From a virus, in the IMG/VR virus record IMGVR_UViG_3300032236_001008, positions 1-59,077 of that record: a stretch of 59,077 nucleotides of DNA; one strand, given 5' to 3'. The notes beneath the pieces were generated by a model that saw only the letters and a program-made list of their open reading frames with translations, had not been told where the DNA came from and ran no database searches. The translations under genes and the position numbers were made by a program. Positions 10,072 to 58,686 of this stretch are shown piece by piece (position 1 is the first letter of the stretch; every line of letters starts with the position of its first letter).

Positions 10072-10590
10072 ATGAAAAGAATTATCCCGATCCTTTTATG
10101 GATCCTAGGTAGTATTGCAGTAATCCACTACACAAACCGATATACCCAAATTGAAGAAAACATTATGGCAATTGCAAAATCCACATTAGACTTCATCACC
10201 AAAGAGGAAGGCGCCCGCAACAAGGCATACAAGGACTCTAAGGGTCTGTGGACTATTGGAGTAGGTCACCTCATCAAAGCCGATGAGCAACACCTCATCA
10301 CCGCAACCCTAACAGACGAACAGGTAGAAGACCTCCTTAAAAGCGATTTAAAGTGGTGTAGCCAGGCCGTAGAGAGCTCGGTAAAGGTACCCCTTGCCCA
10401 GCACCAATTTGACGCTCTATACAGCCTATGCTTCAATATTGGAGGCACTAACTTTGCCAAGTCTACTGTTGTTAAAAAAATCAACGAAAATGATATGCAG
10501 GGCGCGGCAGATGCCATTTTGATGTGGAATAAGCCAGAAGTGCTAGTAAACCGCAGAAAACGCGAAAGAGCACTATTTTTAGGGGCGTAA
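10072..10590 (+). CDS. Endolysin, GH24 (T4-type) lysozyme with N-terminal membrane segment
   Basis: A 172-residue muramidase that hydrolyses peptidoglycan. The T4 lysozyme triad is present with exact spacing: E46, D55 and T61 in KEEGARNKAYKDSKG and LWTIGVGH. Residues 4-20 (IIPILLWILGSIAVIHY) form a membrane helix with little charge, suggesting a signal-anchor-release form secreted by the host Sec machinery and later freed. An internal ATG (M32) would give a soluble version without the anchor. A strong AAGGAG site precedes the first ATG. It follows the spanin genes and ends one promoter upstream of the next unit. Confidence 0.85.
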   Translation: MKRIIPILLWILGSIAVIHYTNRYTQIEENIMAIAKSTLDFITKEEGARNKAYKDSKGLWTIGVGHLIKADEQHLITATLTDEQVEDLLKSDLKWCSQAVESSVKVPLAQHQFDALYSLCFNIGGTNFAKSTVVKKINENDMQGAADAILMWNKPEVLVNRRKRERALFLGA

Positions 10591-10619
10591 AACCCCATTT
10601 TTGTGCATTAGTAGATATA
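10583..10619 (+). promoter_or_regulatory. Phage promoter motif driving the 10.66-17.66 kb unit
   Basis: GGGCG at 10583-10587, exactly 15 nt, then GTGCATTAGTA at 10603-10613; position 37 is an A at 10619, the predicted transcription start. Five other sites in the window share this layout. The motif begins inside the last codons of the endolysin gene. A 45-nt leader follows before the ATG at 10664, with AGGAAA as ribosome-binding site. Confidence 0.7.
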
Positions 10620-17667: not shown

Positions 17668-17704
17668 GGGCGAAAAACACATTTTCTTTGCATTAGTATA
17701 TGTA
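17668..17704 (+). promoter_or_regulatory. Phage promoter motif driving the internal virion protein unit
   Basis: GGGCG at 17668-17672, 15 nt, TTGCATTAGTA at 17688-17698, A at position 37 (17704). A 27-nt leader with TAGGAT as ribosome-binding site leads to the ATG at 17732. Spacing matches the other five sites exactly. Confidence 0.7.
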
Positions 17705-28143: not shown

Positions 28144-28662
28144 TTATACTGCGAAATCTGCTGCAGCGGATGTTGCACCGCCTAACTTCTCACCATCTTC
28201 CAACTTCTGGACATTGTTTAAACCACAAGCAATGCCTTTGGAACCACTTGTGTCGTATGGATACAATGTTACTGATGCACGGCCATAGCAACCACTGTAG
28301 AACTCTGATGCATCCAAGATTGGATTTAGATCAGCATCTACAACACCTGGCTTCTCGTTAGAGTTTGCATTGAAGAAATAATGACCAGCGTATACTGGAT
28401 CGCTTTTCTCTTCGTCACCGTCACGTAAACCACCTTTTAACATCTTAGGAACTGCACCACCAAAGAATGAAGCATTAGATGCTTTGGTGTCCTCAAACGC
28501 TTTAGTAAAACGTTTTACTGTATCAGTATCAGACTTAGGAATCAAAATGGATACGGAATACTTGAGCGTACCATTTGGAGTCTCAGCTGGCTGAAATACG
28601 TGAGCATATGAGAAACGTACTTTACCGGTTACAAACTTAGTTTTTGTGCTATTTTTAGCCAT
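28144..28662 (-). CDS. Single-stranded DNA-binding protein, DUF2815/Enc34 type
   Basis: A 172-residue protein with the conserved start TGKVRFSYAHVFQP and the segment GTLKYSVSILIPKSD of the Enc34 (DUF2815) OB-fold family. YAGHYFFNANSNEKPGV and YSGCYGRASVTLYPY are also characteristic. The C-terminal tail is short. It coats ssDNA during replication. It sits between the RecB-like nuclease and the RNR gene, a common order in such phages. Confidence 0.88.
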   Translation of the reverse strand: MAKNSTKTKFVTGKVRFSYAHVFQPAETPNGTLKYSVSILIPKSDTDTVKRFTKAFEDTKASNASFFGGAVPKMLKGGLRDGDEEKSDPVYAGHYFFNANSNEKPGVVDADLNPILDASEFYSGCYGRASVTLYPYDTSGSKGIACGLNNVQKLEDGEKLGGATSAAADFAV

Positions 28663-28744
28663 GATGATATTACCTTTTTAACGTAAAGATTGGACTTCAA
28701 TAGGGGCCAATCTGTCTACCCTTACAACTATTGTACAACAACTT

Positions 28745-28888
28745 TTATTTTACCACAAGTAAAATTCCAACATTACCTATGGCATAACCTAAAAACATTA
28801 TGCCCTGTCCTGTGGCACCTTTAAAAAACTGGTCTATTGCTACGACCAGATATGTAAGGCCCATCAGGCCTACAAGCCATGAACTCAT
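28745..28888 (-). CDS. Small two-helix membrane protein (47 aa)
   Basis: A 47-codon ORF whose ATG overlaps the stop of the upstream gene (ATGA). It has two hydrophobic segments, WLVGLMGLTYLVVAI and GIMFLGYAIGNVGILLVV, split by a short charged loop. Size and topology fit a membrane modulator or superinfection-exclusion-type protein; there is no direct evidence for either. Confidence 0.6.
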   Translation of the reverse strand: MSSWLVGLMGLTYLVVAIDQFFKGATGQGIMFLGYAIGNVGILLVVK

Positions 28889-30018
28889 TTGAAATCATCC
28901 TTTGCGGTTTCTTTAACACGTACCAGTTTTGGTGAACCTTCTGGACGTTGAATCAAACCACCAAGCCATGATTCCACTTGGCCCTTACCACCTAACTTAA
29001 TTAAAGATGGCACAGACTTCATCTTCTTTGGTTCCCAAATTTGTTCTTCTGGCAAACCTTTTTCTACTAAAACTTTTGCTGCTAATTCTTGATCTGTTAC
29101 TTTGCGATGCGTTACTGTTGTTCCAAGTTTAAATCCTTTTGGAATAACTTGCTCAGTAATTGCTTTGTTCAACGCATAGTCTTCTACATCTGTTGCCCAC
29201 TGTCTTAAGTCTTGCGCTTTTGCAAGGACTTCGACGAGCTCTTCTTCGCTGAGGAGGGGCGGCTCTTTGAACTCTTGCTTGGCGAGCTCTTGGTTGTAGT
29301 CGCTGCGCGCTCTGCAGGTTGCTTTTGCACGGCAGAACTGGCACCAATCGCCCGGGAGGAACTCGCCTGCGCCGCTCCACGCTTTCTTGGCTTTTGGTTT
29401 GACGAAGTAGTTGGCCCAGTCGACCAGTTTACTGATGGTGGTACCATCGGTACTGATACTGTCAAGTCGGGGCTGATGTATCGTGTAACTGACTTCTTTA
29501 ATATCGGGGTATTCTTCTTTGAACTTGCTCCACGCACCGAGGGCGTAGAGCCTGAGCTGCGTGTTGTCTTGGGCTGAGATTGGGATTCCTTTTCCAAACT
29601 TGAGGTCAATAACCCGAATGGAGTGCTTAGAAAGTATAACCACATCGGCTGTACCAAATCCGTCAGGAACCCAGTCAGAGAAGTCCACACGTTGTTCAAA
29701 GAGTGGCGTGTCACCTTCACCGATTTGAGAACGTACGTATAAAACGTAGCTATCGACGTGAGCCTCGAAATCGTCGTTGTAGTAGGGTGTTGCTTTGATA
29801 ATTGCTTCTTCATGTTGATACTCCTCTATGCCAATTTGTCCAAAATGGTGTCTAAGTTTTGCTTCTGCTAGGGAATGCGCCATAGTGCCTTCTTGACTAA
29901 AGTCAAAGGCGCCAGGGGCACGTTTTTGTTCGGGGAGGGTTGCTTCTAGTTTGGCACTAGGGGTGCAAGAAAGCCACCGTTTTGAGCCAGAAGCAGAGAG
30001 TAGTGCATGCGCAGTCAT
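28885..30018 (-). CDS. RecB/Cas4-like nuclease (DUF2800)
   Basis: A 377-residue PD-(D/E)xK nuclease of the DUF2800 family. Residues SASGSKRWLSCTPSAKLE open the protein with C18. The active-site pattern is FGTAD125 then VIDLKFGKG (D138, K140) and QLRLYA (Q154, Y158). C226, C229 and C235 (WCQFCRAKATC) complete a likely iron-sulfur cluster with C18. It probably processes DNA ends in recombination or replication. It has a host-type promoter in front and an AAGG site. Confidence 0.85.
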   Translation of the reverse strand: MTAHALLSASGSKRWLSCTPSAKLEATLPEQKRAPGAFDFSQEGTMAHSLAEAKLRHHFGQIGIEEYQHEEAIIKATPYYNDDFEAHVDSYVLYVRSQIGEGDTPLFEQRVDFSDWVPDGFGTADVVILSKHSIRVIDLKFGKGIPISAQDNTQLRLYALGAWSKFKEEYPDIKEVSYTIHQPRLDSISTDGTTISKLVDWANYFVKPKAKKAWSGAGEFLPGDWCQFCRAKATCRARSDYNQELAKQEFKEPPLLSEEELVEVLAKAQDLRQWATDVEDYALNKAITEQVIPKGFKLGTTVTHRKVTDQELAAKVLVEKGLPEEQIWEPKKMKSVPSLIKLGGKGQVESWLGGLIQRPEGSPKLVRVKETAKDDFK

Positions 30019-30044: not shown

Positions 30045-30078
30045 TATATATACTAATGCAAAAAAGGGACTTTGTAAA
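30045..30078 (-). promoter_or_regulatory. Sigma70-like promoter for the nuclease/SSB/RNR unit
   Basis: On the minus strand TTTACA (30078-30073), 17 nt, then TAGTAT (30055-30050), with the phage element TTGCATTAGTA at 30061-30051. The GGGCG half of the phage motif is missing here; pos. 37 is still an A (30045). A 27-nt leader leads to the ATG at 30018. The -35 box lies inside the terminator at 30061-30088. Confidence 0.6.
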
Positions 30079-30088
30079 GTCCCTTTTT
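30061..30088 (-). terminator. Bidirectional terminator overlapping a promoter
   Basis: AAAAAGGGACTTT, a 3-nt loop and the complementary AAGTCCCTTTTT form a nearly perfect symmetric hairpin with T runs on both strands. It ends the transcript of the terminase-small-subunit-like gene, and its 3' arm carries the -35 region of the next promoter. Confidence 0.75.
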
Positions 30089-30103
30089 GAAAATATATTT
30101 TTC

Positions 30104-31348: not shown

Positions 31349-31606
31349 TTAGAATAATACAGTAGTGCCTGTAAAACGTTTGGCAATTTTACCAAACTCG
31401 TTTACTTGCGTCTCACTAATAAACTTGTTGATTTCAATTGCTTTTTCAACAATTTCTTCAACGGTAGGAAACTTTGGTGCTGCGTCTTCTACTTTTTTAG
31501 ACGCCTTGCTAAGAACTTCCCATGCGGCTAAATTAGCTTCATGTTGTCTAACCAAGATGTCCTTGGCGGTGTTGAAAATAGAAAAGCGTAGTTCAAATGG
31601 ATTCAT
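31349..31606 (-). CDS. Helical phasin-like protein (85 aa)
   Basis: An 85-residue amphipathic helical protein (FELRFSIFNTAKDILVRQHE, EEIVEKAIEINKFISE). Charge and helix patterns look like phasins or coiled-coil adaptor proteins, but there is no specific motif. It stands alone between a promoter with a structured leader (31732) and a terminator (31323), so it is a single-gene unit, perhaps strongly expressed. An AGGAG site precedes the ATG. Confidence 0.55.
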   Translation of the reverse strand: MNPFELRFSIFNTAKDILVRQHEANLAAWEVLSKASKKVEDAAPKFPTVEEIVEKAIEINKFISETQVNEFGKIAKRFTGTTVLF

Positions 31607-31632: not shown

Positions 31633-31654
31633 AAAGATGCCCGTCTTTCCGGGC
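31633..31654 (-). other. Hairpin with U run in the leader of the 85-aa gene
   Basis: On the minus strand GCCCG and CGGGC enclose a 6-nt loop and are followed by ATCTTTTA. It lies within the 125-nt leader between the promoter at 31768-31732 and the ATG at 31606. It could be an attenuator, a 5' stabilising hairpin, or a terminator for the upstream operon. Confidence 0.45.
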
Positions 31655-31731
31655 TGTCCGACCGAGGATCCCCAGTCCAAAGCAAAGTGGCGTTTTAAGT
31701 CACTTGCAGAAGGCGTCTCACGACGAGCTCC

Positions 31732-31768
31732 TATATCTACTAATGCAAAAAACCGGCTGAATCCGCCC
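31732..31768 (-). promoter_or_regulatory. Phage promoter motif on the minus strand
   Basis: On the minus strand GGGCG starts at 31768, followed by 15 nt and TTGCATTAGTA at 31748-31738, with A at position 37 (31732). This is the only full copy of the motif on the minus strand. It begins directly after the stop codon of the gene at 31769. Confidence 0.68.
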
Positions 31769-33322: not shown

Positions 33323-33615
33323 AGTTTTAGCTCCTGTTTAATGAACTCAACACCTTTTTCAAAATGATAGCGCCAATACTTTTCGGTCACATGGATATCA
33401 TTATAACTCTGTCCGTTGAGAAACGCCAGTAAAACTTCTTGGGGTTTTGGTGGCATGCGATATTCTATAAGATACCGAATGTCAAGCATGTCTTCTGGAT
33501 CCCATGGAAACCAGCCCTCAATCAGTTGTGTAGATGTCCCCTCCACATCATCTTGCTCTAACGGATCTGGATCCTCATCCGATAGTCTTGGAGTAGTTGC
33601 TTTTATTTTTTTCAT
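33319..33615 (-). CDS. Small protein with possible helix-turn-helix (98 aa)
   Basis: An acidic N-terminus (SDEDPDPLEQDDVEGTSTQ) is followed by helices; residues 65-95 (PQEVLLAFLNGQSYNDIHV, TEKYWRYHFEKGVEFIK) look like a sigma-region-4 or HTH-type arrangement, weakly. It follows the ketosynthase gene with an ATGA overlap, so it may belong to the same functional group. Confidence 0.48.
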   Translation of the reverse strand: MKKIKATTPRLSDEDPDPLEQDDVEGTSTQLIEGWFPWDPEDMLDIRYLIEYRMPPKPQEVLLAFLNGQSYNDIHVTEKYWRYHFEKGVEFIKQELKL

Positions 33616-34721
33616 ACTCTTGTGTCAAAAATTGATGCTGCGTAAATATTTCCCATGCCTGCTGCCAAACTTAAAATCTTTGGCGAACGTTTCATTATAA
33701 ACGGTTCTGATAAGAACACTGTATCGCTTTCAGTTCTGTTTAGAATAGCTGGTACTAGACCAGATTGCAAACTGTCTAGTAACAAGCAAGTCTCTAATAA
33801 ACCTGATGCGCCCATGGTGTGACCTATCCGTTGTTTAAACGACGTCGCAATAAACGGCGTATGAAACAGCGTTTGAAGAGCGGCCTTCTCAGCCATGTTA
33901 TTTGACTTAGTGCCTGTACCGTGCGTCTTAACAATCTGTATCTCCTCTGATCCCATGTTAGCAGTTTTAAATGCGTTCTCTACTGCACGAACAAAACCTT
34001 GTCCATCTTCACGCTGACCGATAGCGTTGGTGCTTTGCTCACCGGCTACACCAGCGCCAAGCAACTTAGCTTTTGGTTTGTTTGACAGGGCTGCCTCAGA
34101 TTCAAACACAGCAAACACTGCGCCCTGACCAACGTAGAACCCGCCGTTGTGTTTATCAAATGCAGATGGCTTTACACCGGCTTGTTCATCTTTGTGAGTT
34201 AAGCAAGCACCAGACTGCCCAAAGAAGTGCAATACCTTGTCGTTTATGGTATCTTCTAAACCAAGTACGCACACACGATCAAAGCCTTTGTATGTTATCA
34301 GATCATATACATCAGTCATAACTTTAAGACTAGATGCGCATGCGCTGGCATCTGTATAAACCAAATCATCTGCACCACACATCTGCGCTATACGTCCGGC
34401 ATATACCTGTGTTAGTGTAAGCGGTAGTATTTTGTAATCGTAAGTCAAACGGCTTTTCTTAATTGCAAATGGGTTGATGCCAGCAAAGTGAGCATTACCA
34501 GAGGCTAAGATAAATGCAGTCTTACCTTTGCGTTCTCTGAGCGAGCGTAACAAATCAACATCTAACACACGTTCTGCTAACTTGTGTGGCACATATACTA
34601 AACCAGTTTCTTTGCGAGCAAACAGTTCTGGAAACCAATGGATGCGTTGTGGAAAATCTAATTCATCCAGTAAGTCCGTATGGGTTGCAGCAACTGTTCG
34701 GTAATCTGATAGATAAATCAT
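33612..34721 (-). CDS. Beta-ketoacyl-ACP synthase (FabF/KAS II-like)
   Basis: A 369-residue thiolase-fold condensing enzyme. The nucleophile is C128 in YTDASACASSLKV; the two histidines are H267 (KTHGTGTKSNN) and H301 (FKQRIGHTMGASG), with K296 five residues before H301, exactly as K335/H340 of FabF. The usual C-terminal GFGG loop is altered to LAAGMGNIYAA. The protein is about 40 residues shorter than FabF at the N-terminus. Its ATG overlaps the stop of an acyl carrier protein gene, its expected partner. Catalysis is plausible since all key residues remain, but the substrate is unknown. Confidence 0.88.
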   Translation of the reverse strand: MIYLSDYRTVAATHTDLLDELDFPQRIHWFPELFARKETGLVYVPHKLAERVLDVDLLRSLRERKGKTAFILASGNAHFAGINPFAIKKSRLTYDYKILPLTLTQVYAGRIAQMCGADDLVYTDASACASSLKVMTDVYDLITYKGFDRVCVLGLEDTINDKVLHFFGQSGACLTHKDEQAGVKPSAFDKHNGGFYVGQGAVFAVFESEAALSNKPKAKLLGAGVAGEQSTNAIGQREDGQGFVRAVENAFKTANMGSEEIQIVKTHGTGTKSNNMAEKAALQTLFHTPFIATSFKQRIGHTMGASGLLETCLLLDSLQSGLVPAILNRTESDTVFLSEPFIMKRSPKILSLAAGMGNIYAASIFDTRV

Positions 34722-35017
34722 TCAATACTTTCTAACGCTTCTTTAACTGTTGCTGGATGTTTGGTTGCATGGTCTTGCATGTACTTAAAGAAATCACGAA
34801 TGGTACTTGTCTCATTCATTTCCATGAGTTTAACATCTTCCTCCGATACGCCATAGACATCTGACAGATAAATACCTACCATCAAGAAGTCTAAGCTATC
34901 TAACCCTGTGTCTTTAAGTAAGGTATCCAAACTATCAACGACCATTTCATCTGCGCTAACTGGTCTGGCTAACTTAACTACATGCTTAATAATTTCTAAT
35001 AGTTCTTGGTCTGTCAT
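34718..35017 (-). CDS. Acyl carrier protein
   Basis: A 99-residue acidic four-helix protein. The phosphopantetheine site is S41 in TGLDSLDFLMVGIYL (the DSL motif), followed by the usual acidic helix II and a third part (GVSEEDVKLMEMNETSTIRDF). The N-terminus is longer than that of E. coli AcpP. It overlaps the SNF2 helicase gene upstream and the ketosynthase downstream by four bases each. It would need host phosphopantetheinyl transferase to become active. Confidence 0.85.
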   Translation of the reverse strand: MTDQELLEIIKHVVKLARPVSADEMVVDSLDTLLKDTGLDSLDFLMVGIYLSDVYGVSEEDVKLMEMNETSTIRDFFKYMQDHATKHPATVKEALESIE

Positions 35018-40892: not shown

Positions 40893-40928
40893 ATGCATAT
40901 ACTAATGCAAAAATGGTGGTTTTGTCAT
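40892..40928 (-). promoter_or_regulatory. TTGCATTAGTA promoter of the primase unit
   Basis: On the minus strand TTGCATTAGTA at 40910-40900 followed by TATGCATATG. The GGGCG half is absent and AAATG stands in its place. Predicted start around 40894-40892, at or next to the primase start codon. Confidence 0.55.
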
Positions 40929-40943
40929 TTCACAATGTGAAAT
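40927..40943. promoter_or_regulatory. Perfect 17-bp palindrome, likely operator
   Basis: ATTTCACAATGTGAAAT is a perfect palindrome around a central A, placed at the -35 to -45 region of the primase promoter. Position and symmetry suggest a repressor- or activator-binding site. No regulator gene was identified. Confidence 0.55.
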
Positions 40944-40947
40944 AAAT

Positions 40948-41166
40948 TTGTCAGGGTAGTATGGGTTGTCAGGGTTTGATTTTTGTTCATTTTTCCATTT
41001 TTTCCTTTGCTTGACTCCAATAAAATCAACAACTTACTGATAAAATTGTCAGGGTAGTATGGGTAGTACCCCTCTAAATGACTTTTTTTTAGATTTTTTA
41101 AAAATAAAAATAAAATATTCTGAATGGACTTGACTTAGACCCTGACAACCCATACTACCCTGACAA
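40948..41166 (-). repeat. Control module A: inverted TTGTCAGGGTAGTATGGGT repeats around an AT-rich core
   Basis: The 19-mer TTGTCAGGGTAGTATGGGT occurs on the plus strand at 40948 (followed by a second TTGTCAGGGT) and 41046, and inverted at 41139-41166. Between 41065 and 41138 lies an A/T-rich stretch. The same order of elements, including TAAGTTGTTGATT, occurs in opposite orientation at 52152-52368. It stands just upstream of the primase promoter. Origin, enhancer or partition function is possible. Confidence 0.8.
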
Positions 41167-41373: not shown

Positions 41374-41694
41374 TTACTCCTTTATCTTTGAATAACTGTC
41401 AACTACCCAACTAGACTTGTCTTCCCATGAGTCCTGTGTGCCATAATCACCCCTACTCATACGCATACGATCACGCTCTCTTTGTGGGGGTTCAATTGCC
41501 AGCCAGGCAGAGAACGCATCTTTATATTCCTGCCAATCGGGATTTGCTTCGTAAAATGGATGGTTAAATCCAGCCAAATCCACAGTAGATAGCACATCTG
41601 CCTGTCTAATCCACTTTTTTGCTCTTTTAACTATGCCCATCTTATTCCTTGCGGTTATATAGCGGTCATATGCTTTTTTCTGTTCTTCAGTCAT
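41374..41694 (-). CDS. Protein of unknown function (106 aa)
   Basis: A helical charged protein (EEQKKAYDRYITARNKMG, FYEANPDWQEYKDAFSAWL). It overlaps the end of the sigma-factor gene by 8 bases, so the two are co-expressed. No DNA-binding motif is evident; a sigma-associated factor is only a guess. Confidence 0.5.
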   Translation of the reverse strand: MTEEQKKAYDRYITARNKMGIVKRAKKWIRQADVLSTVDLAGFNHPFYEANPDWQEYKDAFSAWLAIEPPQRERDRMRMSRGDYGTQDSWEDKSSWVVDSYSKIKE

Positions 41695-42259
41695 CGTTGC
41701 CTTCCTCCAAAAATTTCTCTTGTTTTAAATTGCTAAGTGATATCGGTTCTTTGCCGATATGTCCTTGTAATTGGCTTATCTTTGCTTCAGATATGCCCAT
41801 GATGGTGGCTAACTCTGACACTTTGGGTTCTCGCCCAAGTATTTGGGACAGATTACGCTTATTGTAGTTTAGCTTTTTAATCTGTTCCATGATGTTGATT
41901 GGTAAACGAATGATGTTTGCGGTATTGTCTAAATCCCTACGCACCCCTTTCTCGATGAACGACTTTGCGTATGTGGCAAATCTTGCGTTATTCGTAGGCT
42001 TCCATCTTTTGGCTGCCATAAACAATGCCTCATTACCCATCGCAAGGATATCCTCGACAGGCACTTTACTGTGATGCCAAGCAGTCATCTTACGCACGAC
42101 ATAAACCACAAAGCGTAAGTTATGGGTGATGAGTTTGTCTAACGCATCGTCATCACCCTTTTGTATCTGCTTGGCTAACTGATGTTCTTCCTCTATGGGT
42201 AAAGGTTCAACTCCATAGAGGGATTGTAAGTAATCGCTTAATAAATCATTTTCTTTCAC
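41687..42259 (-). CDS. Sigma70-family RNA polymerase sigma factor without region 4
   Basis: GTG at 42259 with AGGAAA 7 bases upstream gives 190 residues. Region 1.2 (DLLSDYLQSLYGVEPLPIEE, QLAKQIQKGDDDALDKLI), region 2 (HNLRFVVYVVRKM, DILAMGNEALFMAAKRW, NARFATYAKSFIEKGVR, IRLPINI) and region 3 (REPKVSELATIMGISEAKIS) are clear. The protein then ends, so the -35-binding region 4 is missing. It may direct host RNA polymerase to the phage TGCATTAGTA promoters. TTG at 42274 is a weaker alternative start. Confidence 0.83.
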   Translation of the reverse strand: MKENDLLSDYLQSLYGVEPLPIEEEHQLAKQIQKGDDDALDKLITHNLRFVVYVVRKMTAWHHSKVPVEDILAMGNEALFMAAKRWKPTNNARFATYAKSFIEKGVRRDLDNTANIIRLPINIMEQIKKLNYNKRNLSQILGREPKVSELATIMGISEAKISQLQGHIGKEPISLSNLKQEKFLEEGNDD

Positions 42260-42410
42260 CCGCGTTTCCTTCAAATATTAACTGCAACAACTGTGGGAAA
42301 ACACATAATAGACCCCCAACAATCATAGCAATCAAGCCAAAAGTGATACCGCCCCCTGTTTCTATTGCACAAAAAGCGATAACAATAAATACGATTCCTA
42401 ACATTTTCAT
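42246..42410 (-). CDS. Small two-helix membrane protein (54 aa)
   Basis: A 54-codon ORF with two hydrophobic helices (MLGIVFIVIAFCAIE and FGLIAMIVGGLLCVFPQLLQ). ATGA overlap upstream and 14-base overlap with the sigma gene. Function unknown. Confidence 0.55.
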   Translation of the reverse strand: MKMLGIVFIVIAFCAIETGGGITFGLIAMIVGGLLCVFPQLLQLIFEGNAGERK

Positions 42411-50684: not shown

Positions 50685-51311
50685 TTATTCCTCGCCCTCA
50701 TCTTTGCCCTCGAGGGGTAGAAAATCGTGGGTCATATCGCCATGACCTAGCGGGCATCGTGGTGTTGCAAGTTTTAGCCACTTGCTAGATATCCGCATGG
50801 TGTAGCCACAAGCATAGCAATCACACTTGTGTAAGCGGGTGGATTGCTTTCTCATGTTTACCTGTAATGATTCATGGGGATATTCACCCGCCTCGCTAAC
50901 CCATTGGGCTAGTAATACTTTGAGGGATTCACTAGCATTGGTGCTAGTGGGTTTGCCCTCTAATCCAACAGCATAGGCACAATTCTCAAATACCTTGCCA
51001 TGACCCTCGTTTAAACCTACTGTCGCATGGCATAGCTCATGGATAAGGGTGTCTAATACTTCGATACTATTGGATTCGTTAGGCACGATCACGATTTCAA
51101 AATTGCGGTGATTGCCTTGTGAATCGGTATTGCTCATACATTGACCCGCTACGAATCGTTTTTGACCCTTGCGTTTAAATGCCCCTTTAGTGCTAAATGA
51201 ACATGAGAATTTAATATCCTCGGGGATTGTGTAGCCCTTAGATTCAAACATGGGCTTAATGAATTGCTCAGTCATATGGTTGAGCCATGATTCTCTATTA
51301 AGTAATTGCAT
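50685..51311 (-). CDS. SprT-like zinc metalloprotein
   Basis: A 208-residue protein. H91-E-L-C-H95 (DTLIHELCHATVGL) and H104 (EGHGKVFENCAYAVGL) form the SprT zinc site; C163, C165, C168, C186 and H190 make a C-terminal zinc ribbon. SprT/Spartan proteases act on DNA-protein crosslinks. First gene of its unit, behind the control region at 51312. Confidence 0.8.
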   Translation of the reverse strand: MQLLNRESWLNHMTEQFIKPMFESKGYTIPEDIKFSCSFSTKGAFKRKGQKRFVAGQCMSNTDSQGNHRNFEIVIVPNESNSIEVLDTLIHELCHATVGLNEGHGKVFENCAYAVGLEGKPTSTNASESLKVLLAQWVSEAGEYPHESLQVNMRKQSTRLHKCDCYACGYTMRISSKWLKLATPRCPLGHGDMTHDFLPLEGKDEGEE

Positions 51312-51520
51312 GGTGTTCTATTCCTATCTATTAGTGGTTAGTAATCATGTGGAAAATCCACACCTAATACTCTCATGGTTTAAACAACATTAGGATAGGG
51401 ATATACCCTTAAGGGTTTACCCTATTAGGGTTTACCCTCGAAAATCGAGATCGCAACCCCTCCGATACCTATACCCCATCGGGGGCGAAAACGGCTAAAA
51501 AGCCCCTTAAAACGATTCCT
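51312..51520 (-). promoter_or_regulatory. Control region of the SprT unit, related to that at 50104
   Basis: Holds TGTGGAAAATCCACA (51348-51362), GTTTAAAC (51378), GGGTTTACCC twice, and at 51428-51453 the exact 26-bp element shared with 50235-50260. GGCTAAAAAG and CTTAAAA also recur in the same order at both places. A duplicated promoter/operator or leader. Confidence 0.62.
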
Positions 51521-51628
51521 ATTGGATTCTCATAATGTGGAATGGCTAGGGGTGCGGGCTTGCGTAATAACCCTATAAACTAAAGGGATAAACCCTCACA
51601 CCCTCGCACCCGCATAGCCCTATCACCT

Positions 51629-51825
51629 ATGTTGCACCGCACCATATAACCACATTGGCATTATGGTTATGTTGCACCGCACCATATTGCCCGCCCTGTT
51701 TAAACACCCACCCATATAACCATATTGGCATTGTGGTTATTATGTTGCACCGCACAATGGCGTATCGGATATGTTGCACCGCACAAAGACCTTACTGCCA
51801 TTGTGGTTATGTTGCACCGCACCAT
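51629..51825 (+). repeat. Five-copy ATGTTGCACCGCAC array
   Basis: Copies start at 51629, 51669, 51742, 51771 and 51809, all on the plus strand, and continue as CATAT, CAATGG or AAAG. Between them are inverted ATAACCA ... TGGTTAT arms around an ATTGGCATT core (three times). No gene. The array resembles replication iterons or regulator-binding sites. A GTTTAAAC copy lies at 51698. Confidence 0.75.
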
Positions 51826-51982
51826 GCGTTTCACATTATGAGATTAGATTCCACAATGCGGAATAGGGGGCTTAACTTGTGAGGCGATACCCCTTTATGC
51901 AGACCCCCACCCCCCTCGGCCCGGGGGCCCCACAAAGCTCAAGTTTTTATAAAACCGCATTTTTAAAATTTTTTTGTAAAAA

Positions 51983-52368
51983 TTGTCAGGGTTGTCAGGG
52001 TTTGCTTTTTAAATTGTCAGGGTTTAATTTTTGCATTTTGTAAAATTTTTTTGTAAATTTTTTAAATAAATCAATAACTTACAAGCGCAATTAACCTACA
52101 CCCCTGATTCCGCCGTGAAAGTGTTTGATCTTATTAGATAAAGTGTTAAAATTGTCAGGGTAGTATGGGTAGTACCCCTCTATATCACTTTATTTTAAAA
52201 TTTTAAAAAATAAAAAATAAATATTATGGAGTAAGTACGTTTAGACCCTGACAACCCATACTACCCTGACAATTGGTTGCTAAGTTGTTGATTCATATAG
52301 GGCCAAATAAGAATTATTCTCAATAAAGTGCTAAAACCAAACCCTGACAACCCATACTACCCTGACAA
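51983..52368 (+). repeat. Control module B: inverted and direct TTGTCAGGGT repeats
   Basis: TTGTCAGGG copies at 51983 (double), 52014 and 52152 (full 19-mer TTGTCAGGGTAGTATGGGT), inverted copies at 52245-52272 and 52341-52368, with an A/T-rich core at 52180-52244. Order and spacing, including TAAGTTGTTGATT, copy module A (40948-41166) in the opposite direction. Directly upstream of the promoter at 52381. Confidence 0.8.
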
Positions 52369-52380
52369 TTTTGGGTCATG

Positions 52381-52417
52381 GGGCGTAAAACCCCCAGTTT
52401 TTGCATTAGTAAGTCTA
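52381..52417 (+). promoter_or_regulatory. Phage promoter motif, start codon at position 37
   Basis: GGGCG at 52381-52385, 15 nt, TTGCATTAGTA at 52401-52411, and the A of the ATG at 52417 is position 37. No ribosome-binding site is present, so the mRNA is probably leaderless. Confidence 0.72.
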
Positions 52418-52722
52418 TGAATGATTACGCATATCAAATCAAAGGAGCGTTGGAAAACGCTCAGGGCCAATTCATTGGTCTGCGAGTATTGGTTTGTGAC
52501 ATCAATAACTTTGAAATCGTGGATGTACCGGTGGAAGTCTTGGATAAAGAGACCACCAAGTATTTGCAATACCGCCTCAAAGTTACAGACGTGATAGATA
52601 TCCAGCGCTTACCTATCCCTGTTCAGAACAGAATACGCGCTCCGTTAGGGAGATGGCTCGACTACTGGGTCGTAAAAAACTTTTATGGCAATTCTATCGA
52701 ACGAAAAAGTACTAACTCTTGA
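52417..52722 (+). CDS. Protein of unknown function (101 aa), first gene of the terL unit
   Basis: A 101-residue protein (MNDYAYQIKGALENAQGQFI, VDVPVEVLDKETTKYLQYRL) with mixed fold. Its start coincides with position 37 of the promoter. It overlaps the intein-like gene by 38 bases. Family unknown; not an obvious small terminase. Confidence 0.55.
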   Translation: MNDYAYQIKGALENAQGQFIGLRVLVCDINNFEIVDVPVEVLDKETTKYLQYRLKVTDVIDIQRLPIPVQNRIRAPLGRWLDYWVVKNFYGNSIERKSTNS

Positions 52723-53629
52723 TTATTGGAAACCTGCATCTAAACTGCAAGTAGGCGATTACGTATTTGACCAGTCCGGCACCCCGGTCCAAATTAAACT
52801 GGTTCAAGAGTATCGCGCCCAATCTTGCTATGAGGTAACGTTTAATGATCACCTGCGCATATCAGGAGACGATAAGCTGGGTTTTCTTATGGAAACTCCA
52901 AAGTATCGCAAAAGAACATACGAATATAAACGTGTCCAGCCATTTAGGCGCCCGTTAAAACCATTTACTGTATCCCAGTTAGACTTACTGGAACTTAGGG
53001 ACCACAGAAAAAGGTTAATATTTTCCATACCCACTGCTAAACCATTAGCACTCCCCCACCAAGATTTACCGATACCACCATTTATCTTTGGTCTTTGGTT
53101 TTTTAATAGAAAACCATTAAACCAATCTGACTTTATTGTTGATAAGTTTAAAGATTATGGGTATAAGATTGACAAGAATGGCAATATAACGCCATCTATT
53201 ACCCAGCAGCTGGCACCCAATATCCCAACAACCATTCCGTCAAACTATTTACTAGCTTCCCCGGAGCAACGTACGGAATTATTGTCTGGCATACTGCATT
53301 CTAAGTCACGCCAATATCATGCCAAAGACGATAGATTTAGATTTTCTTCTAGCCACTATGGTACAATACTACAGATACAAGGATTAGTTGAATCATTAGG
53401 ACACAGATCAAGATTATCGTTTGATGAAACGTACAAGTATTACACCATTTCGTTTAAATCACGTACCAAATTAATGGAAGAGCAAAAGTCTCCGCCAATT
53501 AAGGTACACCAAGCTCGCCGATACGTAACCAAGATTGATTCCATACCAAATCAATCTTGCATACACATTGAAACTAATGGCAAAGACAACACGATTCTTG
53601 TAGGAGAAGGATTTATAGCATGCCGTTAA
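52685..53629 (+). CDS. Free-standing intein-derived (Hint / homing endonuclease-like) protein
   Basis: A 314-residue protein. The start (SNEKVLTLDYWKPASKLQVG, then DYVFDQSGTPVQIKLVQEY) follows intein block A, and CYEVTFNDHLRISGDDKLGF recalls block B. The middle has degenerate LAGLIDADG-like parts (FIFGLWFFNR, ELLSGILHSKS). The end YVTKIDSIPNQSCIHIETNG with TILVGEGFIACR is like block F and G but lacks the final His-Asn. The catalytic first Cys/Ser is absent at residue 1 of a splice site, so self-splicing is unlikely. It ends 10 bases inside the terL gene. Confidence 0.65.
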   Translation: MAILSNEKVLTLDYWKPASKLQVGDYVFDQSGTPVQIKLVQEYRAQSCYEVTFNDHLRISGDDKLGFLMETPKYRKRTYEYKRVQPFRRPLKPFTVSQLDLLELRDHRKRLIFSIPTAKPLALPHQDLPIPPFIFGLWFFNRKPLNQSDFIVDKFKDYGYKIDKNGNITPSITQQLAPNIPTTIPSNYLLASPEQRTELLSGILHSKSRQYHAKDDRFRFSSSHYGTILQIQGLVESLGHRSRLSFDETYKYYTISFKSRTKLMEEQKSPPIKVHQARRYVTKIDSIPNQSCIHIETNGKDNTILVGEGFIACR

Positions 53630-55065
53630 CAGATAAACAACAAGCAACATTAGAAAAATTTGCTGCTGTCAACAAACATTGGCCTAAACAACAACTAGAA
53701 GCCGCAATATGGCAAGTAAAATGGGCGCTACAAGCCCTACCACACCAACAGGAGCCAGAAGATGGCGAATATGATACCTTTCTTATGCTTGCCGGTCGTG
53801 GATCGGGTAAGACGCATACTGCCAGCCATTGGATTGGCATTCGCGCTTGGCGTTATGACAATACCCGCTGGCTCGTCACTGCCCCCACTTCCAACGACAT
53901 ACGAGCAACTTGTTTTGAAGGAGACTCTGGACTCCTTAACATCATCCCAAAGTCCCTTATTAGGGATTACAACAAATCCTTATTTGAAATCACCCTTACA
54001 AACGGCTCCCTCATCCAAGGAATCCCAGGCTCAGAGCCAGAACGTTACCGCGGTAAACAATACCACGGCGCATGGTTCGACGAGCTGTGCGCTTTTGACT
54101 ACATCGATGATGCGTATGATGGTGTTCAGTTCACGTTGCGTCTTAGAGACCCTAGAATCCCAAGAGTCCAACAGATTATTACAACAACGCCAAAGCCAAA
54201 AGAGCTCATCGTCGACCTTAACGAAGGAAAAATCGGCGGGGACGTCTATGTGGCCAATGCGTCCTCCTACGACAACCGTGCCAACCTCTCAGAAACGTTT
54301 TTCAAACAATTAGAAACGTACGATGGCACCGACATTGGTAGGCAGGAGATCTATGGCGAGATTCTTGACCCAGAGCAAGCTGGTATTATCAAGCGTAAGC
54401 AGTTTCGTTTATGGCCGGCCAATAAGCCAACGCCAAATCTAGAATACATTATTGCCTCGTACGACCCCGCTACCTCAGAAAAAACCATGAACGACCCAAC
54501 GGCATGCACAATATGGGGCGTGTTTGAACAAACCGACGCTGGTACAGCCATTATCCTTTTGGATGCATGGGACGCGCATTTGTCATACCCAGAGCTACGC
54601 CGCAAAGTTATTGAAGATTTTAAAGAAGTTGTGTACGGCGCCGATAATGACTTTGGTAAAGGCCGTAAAGCAGACCTAATTCTCATGGAAGATAAGTCTG
54701 CTGGTATTTCTCTCATACAAGAGCTGCAAGGTGCTGGTGTACCGGTGCGTGGGTACAACCCAGGGCGCGCAGATAAGGTCCAGCGTTTAAACATTGTGGC
54801 ACCATTAGTTGCTAAAGGTAAAGTATGGATACCAGAAGATAGCAAAATAAAAGGTGAGTTTGCCGATTGGGCAAAAAGGTTCCTAAGACAAGTATGTTCG
54901 TTTCCAGAAGCCGGAGGGCATGATGATTATGTAGACTCTTTGTCACAAGCGCTACGTGTTTTGCGTGATTCTGGATGGATACAGCTTGATTATCTGCCAG
55001 CAAGGGATTATAGTTATGCAGATGATGATTATGGCAAGAAGTTTACCAATCCGTACGCCCAGTAG
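53620..55065 (+). CDS. terL: Terminase large subunit
   Basis: A 481-residue packaging motor. Walker A is LAGRGSGKT (K64), Walker B is HGAWFDELCAFD (D154, E155), and the coupling motif is ITTTPKP. The C-terminal RNase H-like nuclease begins ASYDPATSEKTMND and ends in GHDDYVDSLSQAL. It translocates DNA into the prohead and cuts it. The start overlaps the intein-like gene by 10 bases. The stop TAG is joined to the next promoter. Confidence 0.93.
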   Translation: MPLTDKQQATLEKFAAVNKHWPKQQLEAAIWQVKWALQALPHQQEPEDGEYDTFLMLAGRGSGKTHTASHWIGIRAWRYDNTRWLVTAPTSNDIRATCFEGDSGLLNIIPKSLIRDYNKSLFEITLTNGSLIQGIPGSEPERYRGKQYHGAWFDELCAFDYIDDAYDGVQFTLRLRDPRIPRVQQIITTTPKPKELIVDLNEGKIGGDVYVANASSYDNRANLSETFFKQLETYDGTDIGRQEIYGEILDPEQAGIIKRKQFRLWPANKPTPNLEYIIASYDPATSEKTMNDPTACTIWGVFEQTDAGTAIILLDAWDAHLSYPELRRKVIEDFKEVVYGADNDFGKGRKADLILMEDKSAGISLIQELQGAGVPVRGYNPGRADKVQRLNIVAPLVAKGKVWIPEDSKIKGEFADWAKRFLRQVCSFPEAGGHDDYVDSLSQALRVLRDSGWIQLDYLPARDYSYADDDYGKKFTNPYAQ

Positions 55066-55101
55066 GGCGGAATGTCTTATATTTGTGCATTAGTAGTATT
55101 A
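55065..55101 (+). promoter_or_regulatory. Phage promoter motif, start codon at position 37
   Basis: GGGCG begins at the last base of the terL stop (55065); 15 nt then GTGCATTAGTA at 55085-55095; ATG at 55101 is position 37. No Shine-Dalgarno sequence. Confidence 0.72.
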
Positions 55102-55367
55102 TGGACTTATTAAAAACTCCCCATCAAATGCTGTTAGAAGAGGCAGGCGCAACCCCTCAATCTGACGGCCTGCTAAAAACTCCTAAACAAATGCTGTTTG
55201 AGGAGTCTGGTATGTTACCGCACTATGCAGCCGGCCATACTGTAAAACAACTTAGCCCAAAAGAAATGCAAGCGGCGCTAGTTGCGCATGAATTAAGACA
55301 AAAATATGCCCAAGGGGGCGAGGTTCACCCAACCCTAGCAGCGGCTTTCAACAAAATTTTCAGTTAA
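55101..55367 (+). CDS. Small protein with internal repeat (88 aa)
   Basis: The start at 55101 is the ATG at the promoter. Two repeats, LLKTPHQMLLEEAG (residues 3-16) and LLKTPKQMLFEESG (24-37), are followed by YAAGHTVKQLSPKEMQAALV and a YAQGGEVHPTLAAA end, with a GG-x-V motif. Perhaps a capsid-scaffold or decoration factor; unknown. Confidence 0.6.
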   Translation: MDLLKTPHQMLLEEAGATPQSDGLLKTPKQMLFEESGMLPHYAAGHTVKQLSPKEMQAALVAHELRQKYAQGGEVHPTLAAAFNKIFS

Positions 55368-55371
55368 AAAT

Positions 55372-58239
55372 ATGGCACAACCACAAATCCCAATGCAAAT
55401 GGGGCAAAACCTGCCCGGCCTTGACACAGAAGAAAATCTGGCACAAGCTCAAGAGCAAGATGCAGAGATGGATATGTACGAGGAAGCTCTTGGATTAGAT
55501 CCAGGGGAAGCCGAGGGTGAAGTCATTGAATTGGAAGATGGTTCGGTTGTAGTTAATTTCCAACCAACCGAAGGCCCACGTAAAAACCCAGAGTTTTACG
55601 CCAACTTGGCCGAAGAGCTTGATGAAGATGTTCTTCAAGCATTAGCTAACGAATATTTAGACTTTATTGACGTTGACAAAGAGTCTCGTAAACAAAGGGA
55701 CAAGCAATATGAAGAAGGATTACGCCGGACAGGACTTGGCAAGGATGCACCTGGCGGTGCAACGTTCGATGGTGCTTCTAAAGTTGTACACCCAGTTATG
55801 GCTGAGGCGTGTGTTGACTTTGCTGCGTCAGCCGCAAAGGAATTACTCCCGCCTGATGGTTTGGTTAAATCAAGCATTAAAGGCGAAGCCGACAGAATAA
55901 AAGAAGAAACTGCAGAACGTAAAGTAAACTTTATGAACTGGCAGTTAACTGAACAAATTCCCGAGTATCGTGATGAGATGGAGCAATTGCTTACTCAATT
56001 ACCACTCGGTGGTTCACAATTTCTTAAATGGCGTTTTGATGAAGAGCAAGCGCGCCCAATGTGCGAGTGGGTGCCGATTGATAACATCTTCTTGCCATAC
56101 TCATCTACAAACTTTTACACATCGCCACGTGTAACTGAACAACAAGACATTACAGAAGATACATTTTTACAGCGTATTGAAGCCGGTATATACCGTGACA
56201 TTAATAGCACGTACTCTTCTGACTCTCCACTGACAGATCAAACTCGTAGCCAAGAAGCTAACGACAAAATCGAAGGTAAACAAGAGCCAACCAAAAATAT
56301 TGACGGACTACGTCGTATTTATGAGATTACTTGTTTCATGCGCCTTGATGATGATCCAGAAACAGGTGGACGTCGTGCCCCATACATTATGACAATTGAC
56401 GAGACAACCGGCGATGTGTTGTCTTTGTATAGAAACTGGGAAGCAAACGATGAGAAACTCACGAAACTGGATTGGTACGTCGAATACAAATTCATTCCTT
56501 GGCGTGGCGCTTACGCTATTGGCCTCCCCCATCTTATTGGCGGCCTGTCTGCTGCTCTCACTGGTTCTCTTCGGGCTCTCCTTGACGCTGCTCATATCAA
56601 CAACAGCCAGACGATGCTTAAGCTCAAGGGTGGACGCATTGGTGGCCAGTCTGACAGAATAGAACCCACCCAGGTTATTGAAATTGAAGGCGCCCCTGGC
56701 GTCGATGATGTACGTAAGATTGCAATGGCCATGCCATTTAACCCGCCATCAAGCGTATTGTTTGATTTGTTGGGTTGGTTAACAGAAGCTGCTAAAGGTG
56801 TTGTAACTACATCTGAAGAAAAAATTGCTGACGCTAACAGTCAGATGCCAGTTGGCACAACCCAAGCTCTAATTGAGCAAGGTGCTAAAGTGTTCTCAAG
56901 CATCCATGCTCGTATGCACCGCAGTCAAGCCAAATCATTGGCAATTGTATCTCGCATTAACCATTGGTTCCTTCCAGACATGGATAACCAGTCTGGCGAA
57001 GAGATTGAAGTACGTGATTTTGCTAACAACAACGACGTACGCCCAGTTTCAGACCCTAATATTTTCTCTGAGACACAACGTTTGGCTCAGAACCAAGCTG
57101 TATTGCAAATGGCACAGGCCGCCAACGCAACAGCACCCAATATGTTTGACATGCGCGCAGTATATCGCCGTATGTTAGAGCAAATGAAAGTTCCTGGCAT
57201 TGAAGAAATTCTACCAAACCCAATGGGTGCTAAAGAATCTAACCCAGCGCTTGAAAACGTGTCCATGACTATGGGCAGACCGGCAGCTGCGTACCCAGAT
57301 CAAGACCACATTGCTCACATTAAGATCCATTTGCAGTATGCGATGGATCCAGCGTATGGTGGCAACCCAGTTATTGGCCCATCATTCTCCCCACATGCAT
57401 TAGAGCACTTAAAACAACATTTAACACTGCACTATTTGCAATCTATGCGTAACTATGTAGCGCATGCCGCCGGTGGTAAAGATACACTCGAGTTGCATCA
57501 AGAAAAACCGCTTGACCAAGACGCACAGCAAGCTCTTGCATTGGCTTCACAAATGGTTTCTCAGGATTCACAACAAACCATGCAGCCATTTGTACAACAA
57601 ATTCAACAATTGGCCCAAAAAGTACAACAAGCCCAACAAGCGCAACAACAAAATATTGCAGCGCAAGATCCAACTGCACAAGTTCTGCTTAAAACACAAA
57701 TGGCAGAGACACAACGCAAACAAGCTGAGTCTCAAGCACGTATGCAAATGGAACAATCTAAAACTGAGCAAGATTACCAGCTTAAAATTGCTGAACTTAA
57801 ACGTCAAGTGCTCGATTTACAAGCTAAATACGAAACACAGACAACTGTTGACAACCAAAGAAATGCTACACAGATTGCTTTGGCTGATATTAACAATTCT
57901 TCACGTGAACGTATTGCAGAAATTAACGCCAAAATGGCTTTAAATGCTGATCAGGTAAATATGCAGCACGAACAAGATATGTTGTCTCGTCAAGCCACTA
58001 TGGAAGCCGAACAAAGCATCCGTGACCATGGAATTGAGATTCAACAACAACAAATGCAACACGCATCACAAATGGTTCAACAACAGGCTGATAATGCAGC
58101 CCAGCAACAGCAATCTGCTTTAGAAGCTCAACAACAATCTGGTTTACAGCAGCAACAAGCTCAACAGCAAGCAGGTTTACAACAGCAACAAGCAGATTTA
58201 CAACCACCAACACCCCCAACAGGAGCAACAAATGGCTAA
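55372..58239 (+). CDS. Portal protein (P22 family) with long Gln-rich C-terminus
   Basis: A 955-residue portal, the dodecameric channel at the capsid vertex. Diagnostic parts are WVPIDNIFLPYSSTNFYTSP, YVEYKFIPWRGAYAIGLPHL, LRALLDAAHINNSQTML and PFNPPSSVLFDLLGWLTEAA, ending in IVSRINHWFLPD. The C-terminal 240 residues are Gln-rich coiled coil (QQIQQLAQKVQQAQQAQQQ and further), comparable with the P22 barrel but longer than in the 725-residue P22 protein. Directly after a small gene. Confidence 0.88.
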   Translation: MAQPQIPMQMGQNLPGLDTEENLAQAQEQDAEMDMYEEALGLDPGEAEGEVIELEDGSVVVNFQPTEGPRKNPEFYANLAEELDEDVLQALANEYLDFIDVDKESRKQRDKQYEEGLRRTGLGKDAPGGATFDGASKVVHPVMAEACVDFAASAAKELLPPDGLVKSSIKGEADRIKEETAERKVNFMNWQLTEQIPEYRDEMEQLLTQLPLGGSQFLKWRFDEEQARPMCEWVPIDNIFLPYSSTNFYTSPRVTEQQDITEDTFLQRIEAGIYRDINSTYSSDSPLTDQTRSQEANDKIEGKQEPTKNIDGLRRIYEITCFMRLDDDPETGGRRAPYIMTIDETTGDVLSLYRNWEANDEKLTKLDWYVEYKFIPWRGAYAIGLPHLIGGLSAALTGSLRALLDAAHINNSQTMLKLKGGRIGGQSDRIEPTQVIEIEGAPGVDDVRKIAMAMPFNPPSSVLFDLLGWLTEAAKGVVTTSEEKIADANSQMPVGTTQALIEQGAKVFSSIHARMHRSQAKSLAIVSRINHWFLPDMDNQSGEEIEVRDFANNNDVRPVSDPNIFSETQRLAQNQAVLQMAQAANATAPNMFDMRAVYRRMLEQMKVPGIEEILPNPMGAKESNPALENVSMTMGRPAAAYPDQDHIAHIKIHLQYAMDPAYGGNPVIGPSFSPHALEHLKQHLTLHYLQSMRNYVAHAAGGKDTLELHQEKPLDQDAQQALALASQMVSQDSQQTMQPFVQQIQQLAQKVQQAQQAQQQNIAAQDPTAQVLLKTQMAETQRKQAESQARMQMEQSKTEQDYQLKIAELKRQVLDLQAKYETQTTVDNQRNATQIALADINNSSRERIAEINAKMALNADQVNMQHEQDMLSRQATMEAEQSIRDHGIEIQQQQMQHASQMVQQQADNAAQQQQSALEAQQQSGLQQQQAQQQAGLQQQQADLQPPTPPTGATNG

Positions 58240-58450
58240 AAACCCACAAGACGGCGGCGAATTAGGCTTTCGTAAAACTTACAAAATGACTGGTACACCA
58301 GGAAACGCTGGCGGCCCAGGCGCTAAAGTAGATAATGGACCATCTGGTTCTTTGCGCGCTAACAATGCCGTAAAAGGCAAACCAGCACGTTCATCTAAAG
58401 TTGGCCCAGATAAAAATCTTAAAGATATTGGCGGCGGCAACTTTTATTAA
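58232..58450 (+). CDS. Small protein of unknown function (72 aa)
   Basis: A 72-residue basic, Gly-rich protein (MAKNPQDGGELGFRKTYKMT, GPGAKVDNGPSGSLRANNAV). Overlaps the portal gene by eight bases. Possibly virion-associated; no family is recognised. Confidence 0.55.
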   Translation: MAKNPQDGGELGFRKTYKMTGTPGNAGGPGAKVDNGPSGSLRANNAVKGKPARSSKVGPDKNLKDIGGGNFY

Positions 58451-58458
58451 TAGTTTTA

Positions 58459-58495
58459 GGGCGGAATTCTTCATAGTCTTGCATTAGTAAGATTA
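58459..58495 (+). promoter_or_regulatory. Phage promoter motif, start codon at position 37
   Basis: GGGCG at 58459-58463, 15 nt, TTGCATTAGTA at 58479-58489; A of the ATG at 58495 is position 37, without Shine-Dalgarno. Confidence 0.72.
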
Positions 58496-58686
58496 TGAAG
58501 GACTTTATTTCTGAAGTAATTCGTCGCGTACGCGATGAGAAAAAGAATCTAGCAGAAGCTGTCACTGCGGGTACAAATGTTAATTCATTTGATGATTATC
58601 AACGGTTAATTGGCACAATCGATGGGTTAAACCTGACATTAGCCATAGTTGATGAAATTTTGACAGAGGACGAAGAAGCTGAATAG
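58495..58686 (+). CDS. Small conserved phage protein (63 aa)
   Basis: MKDFISEVIRRVRDEKKNLA then SFDDYQRLIGTIDGLNLTL and an acidic end. The pattern is one I recall from short proteins between portal and capsid genes, function unknown. The start coincides with position 37 of the promoter. Confidence 0.6.
   Translation: MKDFISEVIRRVRDEKKNLAEAVTAGTNVNSFDDYQRLIGTIDGLNLTLAIVDEILTEDEEAE

Follow-up and report, generated by a model that had tools for sequence, protein, structure and literature searches.

Leaderless translation has been studied mostly in bacteria, archaea or single phage repressors, such as that of phage lambda, whose cI gene has its start codon at +1 when transcribed from pRM; leaderless phage repressor genes are used singly. 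The cI gene is also named in PMC9031893. Most middle and late messenger RNAs (mRNAs) of the Thermus phage phiYS40 are leaderless (PMC3594737), and Thermus is itself rich in leaderless genes (PMC3160421); leaderless genes are also present in a betaproteobacterium, where 114 transcription start sites lie at or within 10 nucleotides (nt) of annotated gene starts, 24 of them belonging to tRNAs (PMC4603805). According to the excerpted text of PMC8948821, phage phiEco32 has a sigma-70-like protein without region 4, and the late promoter elements of phiEco32 and 7-11 are short, with transcription starting 6–9 bp away. The middle and late promoters of phage P23-45 are of the extended -10 type, with gp39, and are used once the contact between sigma region 4 and the -35 element is lost (PMC7403470). 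Here, we describe a promoter-like motif in the IMG/VR virus record IMGVR_UViG_3300032236_001008, positions 1 to 59,077 of which were analysed (the whole stretch is called the window below). The final A of this motif is also the first base of the ATG of three genes, at 52417, 55101 and 58495. Judging from the sequence and its relatives, we consider it likely that the motif is a phage late promoter and that the mRNAs of these three genes are leaderless, beginning at the promoter's invariant A.

The motif reads GGGCG-N16-TGCATTAGTA-N4-T-A, base 1 being the first G of GGGCG and base 37 the final A, which lies 15 bases downstream of the T in TGCATTAGTA. Direct reading bears out what an earlier note on this DNA had claimed, namely that the three ATGs begin exactly at base 37 without a preceding Shine-Dalgarno (SD) sequence, and that base 37 at 10619 and 17704 is an A opening a conventional leader with an SD. 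The sites concerned, and the small genes that begin flush with them, are the following (ORF, open reading frame).

52381 to 52417, plus strand: full motif; predicted +1 is the A of ATG 52417
52417 to 52722, plus strand: small gene of 101 amino acids, first plus-strand gene of the late arm, predicted leaderless
55065 to 55101, plus strand: full motif, flanked by the terminase gene and ORF 55101; predicted +1 is the A of the ATG
55101 to 55367, plus strand: small gene of 88 amino acids with a repeated LLKTPxQML motif, predicted leaderless
58459 to 58495, plus strand: full motif; predicted +1 is the A of ATG 58495
58495 to 58686, plus strand: small gene of 63 amino acids (MKDFISE...), predicted leaderless
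10583 to 10619, plus strand: full motif, 45-nt leader before ORF 10664, SD AGGA
17668 to 17704, plus strand: full motif, 28-nt leader before ORF 17732, SD AGGA

Pairing with the anti-SD amounts to +0.6, -1.4 and +0.6 kcal/mol at the three flush starts, compared with a median of -4.2 kcal/mol over 57 window genes; since most window genes pair with the anti-SD, the phage otherwise uses SDs. The start codon is AUG in the window genes and in their orthologs, and the lack of an SD together with a -10 signal about 10 base pairs (bp) before the start is the signature of "TA-led" genes (PMC3160421). In the orthologs of all three genes, a pattern of strongest variation at third codon positions sets in with codon 2 and is not seen further upstream. 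The fixed register, the invariant A at +1 and this codon periodicity from the ATG all support the earlier note's proposal that transcription and translation would start at the same base. Further support comes from the missing SD, from the many orthologs in which no upstream in-frame start exists, and from the swapping of leaderless and led forms within one gene.

How strictly is the register kept? Relatives whose terminase is 89–94% identical supplied the orthologs of the three small genes, and these were clustered with a cut-off of 90% identity across 150 nt. The ATG falls on base 37 in all 38 non-redundant orthologs of gene 52417 and in 24 of the 25 of gene 58495, the orthologs listed for these two genes being 43–100% identical to the window proteins. 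The sole exception is gene 58495 in L214, where the motif is displaced and the ATG is preceded by AAAGGA, an SD-like sequence; in L215, where the motif of this gene is degenerate, the offset tally places it elsewhere and the register check counts it as in register. Gene 55101 is flush in only 12 of 33 non-redundant orthologs, and the remainder, L226 and L173 among them, keep the A and follow it with a leader of 2–23 nt, which in several cases opens with AGGA about 8 nt before the ATG.

Tallied by offset from the motif start, from 12 through 18, ATGs number 0, 0, 0, 61, 0, 1 and 2 in 132 non-redundant sites of relatives, and the peak at offset 15 corresponds to base 37. A scan of IMG/VR found the exact register in at least 118 stretches, against six with the ATG one base earlier and one with it one base later, and on these shifted-register scans we rejected a chance meeting of motif and ATG. 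The seven off-register stretches themselves look like chance. Five of them are one sequence; six open frames of only 11–42 codons and the other, in L342, a frame of 90 codons. Ten large related records hold 4–8 exact GGGCG-N16-TGCATTAGT sites each, against none for the reversed control. In a set of 224 non-redundant sites, the base at +1 is A in 219 and that at -1 is T in 214. Bases +1 to +3 of this set read AGG in 102 sites, ATG in 81, AGA in 19 and AAG in 12, a share of ATG that is no estimate of its frequency, since the set was fed in part by a scan requiring an in-register ATG; the set of 132 sites and the shifted scans are free of this bias. The near-constant A, with AGG and ATG as the commonest triplets, suggests that the A is retained as a signal for transcription, with ATG among the two continuations that are preferred. 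The genes that start with in-register ATGs fall into three main families, with rare others, of which we take one, by eye, to be like window ORF 30104 and another to be acetyltransferase-like. As two of the 81 lead into frames of no more than 2 and 12 codons, a few in-register ATGs are due to chance.

The sequence TGC-ATTAGT-N6-A is present in 219 of the 224 sites, with a single base separating the TG from the -10 hexamer and the inferred +1 six bases past the hexamer. Read as an extended -10 promoter, the motif has its TG at -15/-14, ATTAGT at -12 to -7 and GGGCG as a second element at -36 to -32. An extended -10 TG usually lies at -15/-14, a geometry that places +1 on base 37. ATTAGT is no near-consensus -10 hexamer: on direct reading it has three of six bases in common with TATAAT, so that the motif would work like a sigma-70 consensus promoter rather than be one. 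A sigma-54 promoter was considered and rejected, the GG-to-GC spacing being about 20 bases here and not about 10.

The alternative that survives best concerns the exact 5' end. Transcription could start a few bases from the A, for instance at -3 or -1, and the mRNAs would then carry a leader of 1–5 nt and be only nearly leaderless. A start site can shift by 1–2 nt, 55101 orthologs with leaders of 2–3 nt exist (L231, L027 and L215), and the known phage sigma promoters in the excerpts of PMC8948821 start 6–8 bp past their element, which is only a rough pointer to base 37. Nonetheless, sites with and without an ATG alike retain the T at -1 and the A at +1 while their bases 32–35 vary, which points to a start at base 37 and makes a shifted start rather unlikely.

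Leaders in relatives bear on the same question. There, the same promoter precedes a leader of about 90 nt that runs from the +1 A and appears as a covarying double pseudoknot, in which two helices cross hairpins. Nine of its 21 pairs have changed on both sides, a number reached in 0 of 500 shuffles, and transcript bases 2–6 pair within one nearly invariant helix, the pairing being kept in 96% of cells. This pairing excludes a start later than about +2 and says nothing against an earlier one. The structured leader, which stands before a gene starting MSSTFTxPxRVFKRNN, lies outside the window, at these places.

L192, 10952 to 11043, plus strand
L245, 2988 to 3082, minus strand
L185, 18565 to 18658
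17 further relatives

An Rfam search with the L192 leader returned no family, with weak sub-threshold matches alone. The window itself has a different leader at 31640–31732 on the minus strand, which begins at +1 with AGGAGCTCGTCGTGAGACGCC... and contains a CTCGTCGTGAGACG hairpin common to relatives; leaders with this hairpin often precede a gene of about 85 amino acids (MNPFELRF).

If the motif is a promoter, which enzyme would read it? No RNA polymerase gene was found among the large window ORFs scanned, and a phage single-subunit RNA polymerase was set aside as the reader on this ground. The candidate is instead a phage-encoded sigma factor.

41687 to 42274, minus strand: sigma-70 family factor of 195 amino acids with regions 1.2, 2 and 3, candidate reader of the motif

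Pfam places regions 2 and 3 of this protein above the cut-off and region 1.2 just below it, and finds no region 4 in the protein or elsewhere in the record, a layout like that of phi32_gp36 (sigma-70 regions 2 and 3 without region 4). Wherever a related locus extends over the primase start, the sigma gene adjoins the primase gene; apart from two fragments and a remote Caulobacter phage, no primase locus lacks it. Three motif-bearing records of 46–50 kilobases (kb) have no sigma match, and as these may be fragments we do not count them as counter-evidence. The link between sigma factor and motif is one that we infer, from co-occurrence only. In the mechanism we propose, host core RNA polymerase with this sigma factor would be the likely enzyme, initiating late transcription at the A. 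If TG follows, the mRNA would begin 5'-AUG and ribosomes would bind this 5' AUG directly, without an SD; at the other promoters of the set, the transcript would begin AGG or AAG and carry a leader. The ORF that follows gene 52417 overlaps it (52685 versus 52722), so leaderless entry at the first cistron could feed the following genes by coupling.

Some points weigh against leaderless late mRNAs. Many of the orthologs descend from three gene families and do not count as separate inventions; with region 4 missing from sigma factor and record alike, the contact with GGGCG is unexplained; and the starts at 55101 and 58495 could also lie on mRNA that reads through from late genes upstream. This last point can be taken further: the promoter would be real, yet translation would proceed mainly from longer read-through mRNAs, through an unstructured, AT-rich and SD-free start, the flush end being a by-product of compaction. 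Gene 55101 indeed starts 35 nt after the terminase gene and gene 58495 starts 44 nt after ORF 58232-58450, and SD-free starts occur elsewhere in the window, for example at ORF 55372 (+0.8 kcal/mol). However, gene 52417 has no plus-strand gene for 1.1 kb upstream and has a terminator-like stretch, GGGG...CCCC-T5, inside its promoter, and read-through does not require the exact register that orthologs of 52417 and 58495 keep almost without exception. We therefore regard translation from read-through mRNA as improbable.

That the motif is not a promoter at all, and is instead an RNA or DNA element such as a processing site, a translation enhancer or a regulator site in front of late genes, seems very improbable. 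GGGCG is unlike the usual -35 box, and promoter activity is a prediction. Nonetheless, two elements stand at promoter spacing, the expected +1 is a conserved purine, gene groups on either strand are headed by sites, some of which directly follow terminator-like hairpins, and the RNA downstream is not common to the sites. Finally, it is hardly credible that the true starts lie at other codons, upstream in frame or downstream, with the base-37 ATG an internal methionine or a coincidence: the window has an in-frame ATG at 52378, upstream of 52417, but in 42 of 70 distinct loci from the three families no in-frame start exists between the preceding stop and the ATG (23 of 32 distinct orthologs for 58495, 13 of 28 for 52417 and 6 of 10 for 55101), and residues 1–12 show coding-type variation. 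Late transcripts that begin with the start codon itself thus remain our preferred explanation.

On the minus strand, the motif or its TGCATTAGTA part recurs as follows.

31732 to 31768, minus strand: full motif; predicted +1 at 31732, leader of about 125 nt before ORF 31349-31606
30045 to 30081, minus strand: TGCATTAGTA but no GGGCG, immediately after a terminator-like hairpin; predicted +1 at 30045, from which a leader of 27 nt runs to the exonuclease gene 28885-30018
40894 to 40930, minus strand: TGCATTAGTA without GGGCG before the primase gene; ATG off register

The sites with +1 at 31732 and 30045 are additional to those the earlier note had listed. Another exact TGCATTAGTA, at 2464 on the minus strand, lies opposite a tail-fibre-like gene and lacks the second element. 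At 30045–30090 (minus strand), 52381–52406 and 10580–10602, terminator-like hairpins with runs of T stop right at the promoter or overlap with it, a placement that would insulate the new transcript from read-through.

The primase gene had also been proposed to have a start in register, at 40892; this does not hold, as 40892 is base 39 and base 37 is 40894. TGCATTAGTA occupies 40909–40900 on the minus strand here, GGGCG is missing, and ATGs follow at 40898, 40892 and 40883, the last corresponding to the start MNTKP that is conserved in the primases of relatives. ATG 40892 is probably not the conserved primase start. With its ATG 2 nt off register, no GGGCG and the conserved start elsewhere, the primase was rejected as a fourth leaderless case. 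Primases of relatives mostly have leaders, many with SDs, and relative L220 has an ATG in register at this site. Just upstream of the primase promoter site, at 40933–40950 on the minus strand, a palindrome like TTTCACAATGTGAAA recurs in many relatives and looks like an operator.

The wider layout of the record is of two arms. The late arm runs rightward from 52417, and structural, tail and lysis-type genes occupy 65–24092; the leftward arm, from 51311 to 24093, holds the genes for primase, DNA polymerase, ribonucleotide reductase, exonuclease and the sigma-70 family factor. The late arm includes these two genes.

53620 to 55065, plus strand: large terminase subunit, late-arm marker and query for finding relatives
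55372 to 58239, plus strand: portal protein, late arm

The ORF before the terminase gene, 52685-53629 (plus strand), has weak PHROG terminase-family matches and no Pfam match, and its N-terminus (VLTLDYWKPASKLQVGDYVFDQSG) resembles a Hint/intein domain by eye. The arms are separated by a gene-poor stretch of 1.1 kb (51311–52380) with repeats TATGTTGCACCGCACCATA and CCCTGACAACCCATACTACCCTGACAA, a possible replication origin. In the leftward arm, beta-ketoacyl synthase and acyl-carrier-like genes are adjacent (33612–35017, minus strand), and the Rfam DUF2815 RNA (RF03084, 76.8 bits) lies at 28660–28722 (minus strand), preceding the gene for a single-stranded DNA-binding protein. DNA comparison with INPHARED found no near-identical phage record, the closest terminase being 53% identical, and the small late protein of gene 58495 had no phage match. 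Presumably the group is one of freshwater phages, going by the sample types from which we believe the contigs to come. One metagenome-assembled genome labelled betaproteobacterium holds three relatives, which is weak evidence for a host and possibly an effect of binning.

A large, recurring phage group thus appears to use leaderless translation for late operons over long evolutionary distances. Gene 55101, which alternates between leaderless and led forms under the same promoter, offers a natural comparison of both modes. The motif also provides a prediction of 5' ends at base resolution and marks late operons of uncultured phages. Tentatively, and well aware that it may prove wrong, we suggest a broader rule: a widespread phage group, mostly from freshwater-type samples, might use one late promoter with an invariant A, the next two bases of which set the translation mode of each late operon, A-TG giving leaderless and A-GG SD-type initiation, with the SD sometimes at the very 5' end. 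Leaderless first cistrons could then be favoured late in infection if canonical initiation is limiting.

Leaderless late mRNAs in phages are already known, and the window case would be a variant thereof. The open-licence literature searched did not contain the present combination, its base-exact conservation across a large uncultured group, or the switch at 55101. Compared with the lambda cI type, in which single repressor genes are leaderless, here it would be late operons. Like phiEco32 and 7-11, the window phage would use a phage sigma factor for late genes, and that of phiEco32 also lacks region 4; however, the consensus differs, being tAATGTAtA and GTAAtg-16-aCTA for those phages in the excerpts of PMC8948821 against GGGCG-16-TGCATTAGTA here, and the same excerpts do not describe leaderless late genes for them. 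With P23-45 it shares late promoters of the extended -10 class, yet in P23-45 the host sigma A is remodelled, whereas in the window a phage sigma factor without region 4 is the candidate and the second element is GGGCG. phiYS40 is likewise a phage with leaderless late mRNAs. Its programme, in which most middle and late genes are leaderless and host IF2/IF3 is altered, is wider in extent than that of the window, where an ATG begins at base 37 in only three of the five plus-strand motif sites: leaderless late operons would be few and others would begin with AGG and a leader, in a phage that encodes a sigma factor and whose group was sampled mostly from freshwater-type sources.

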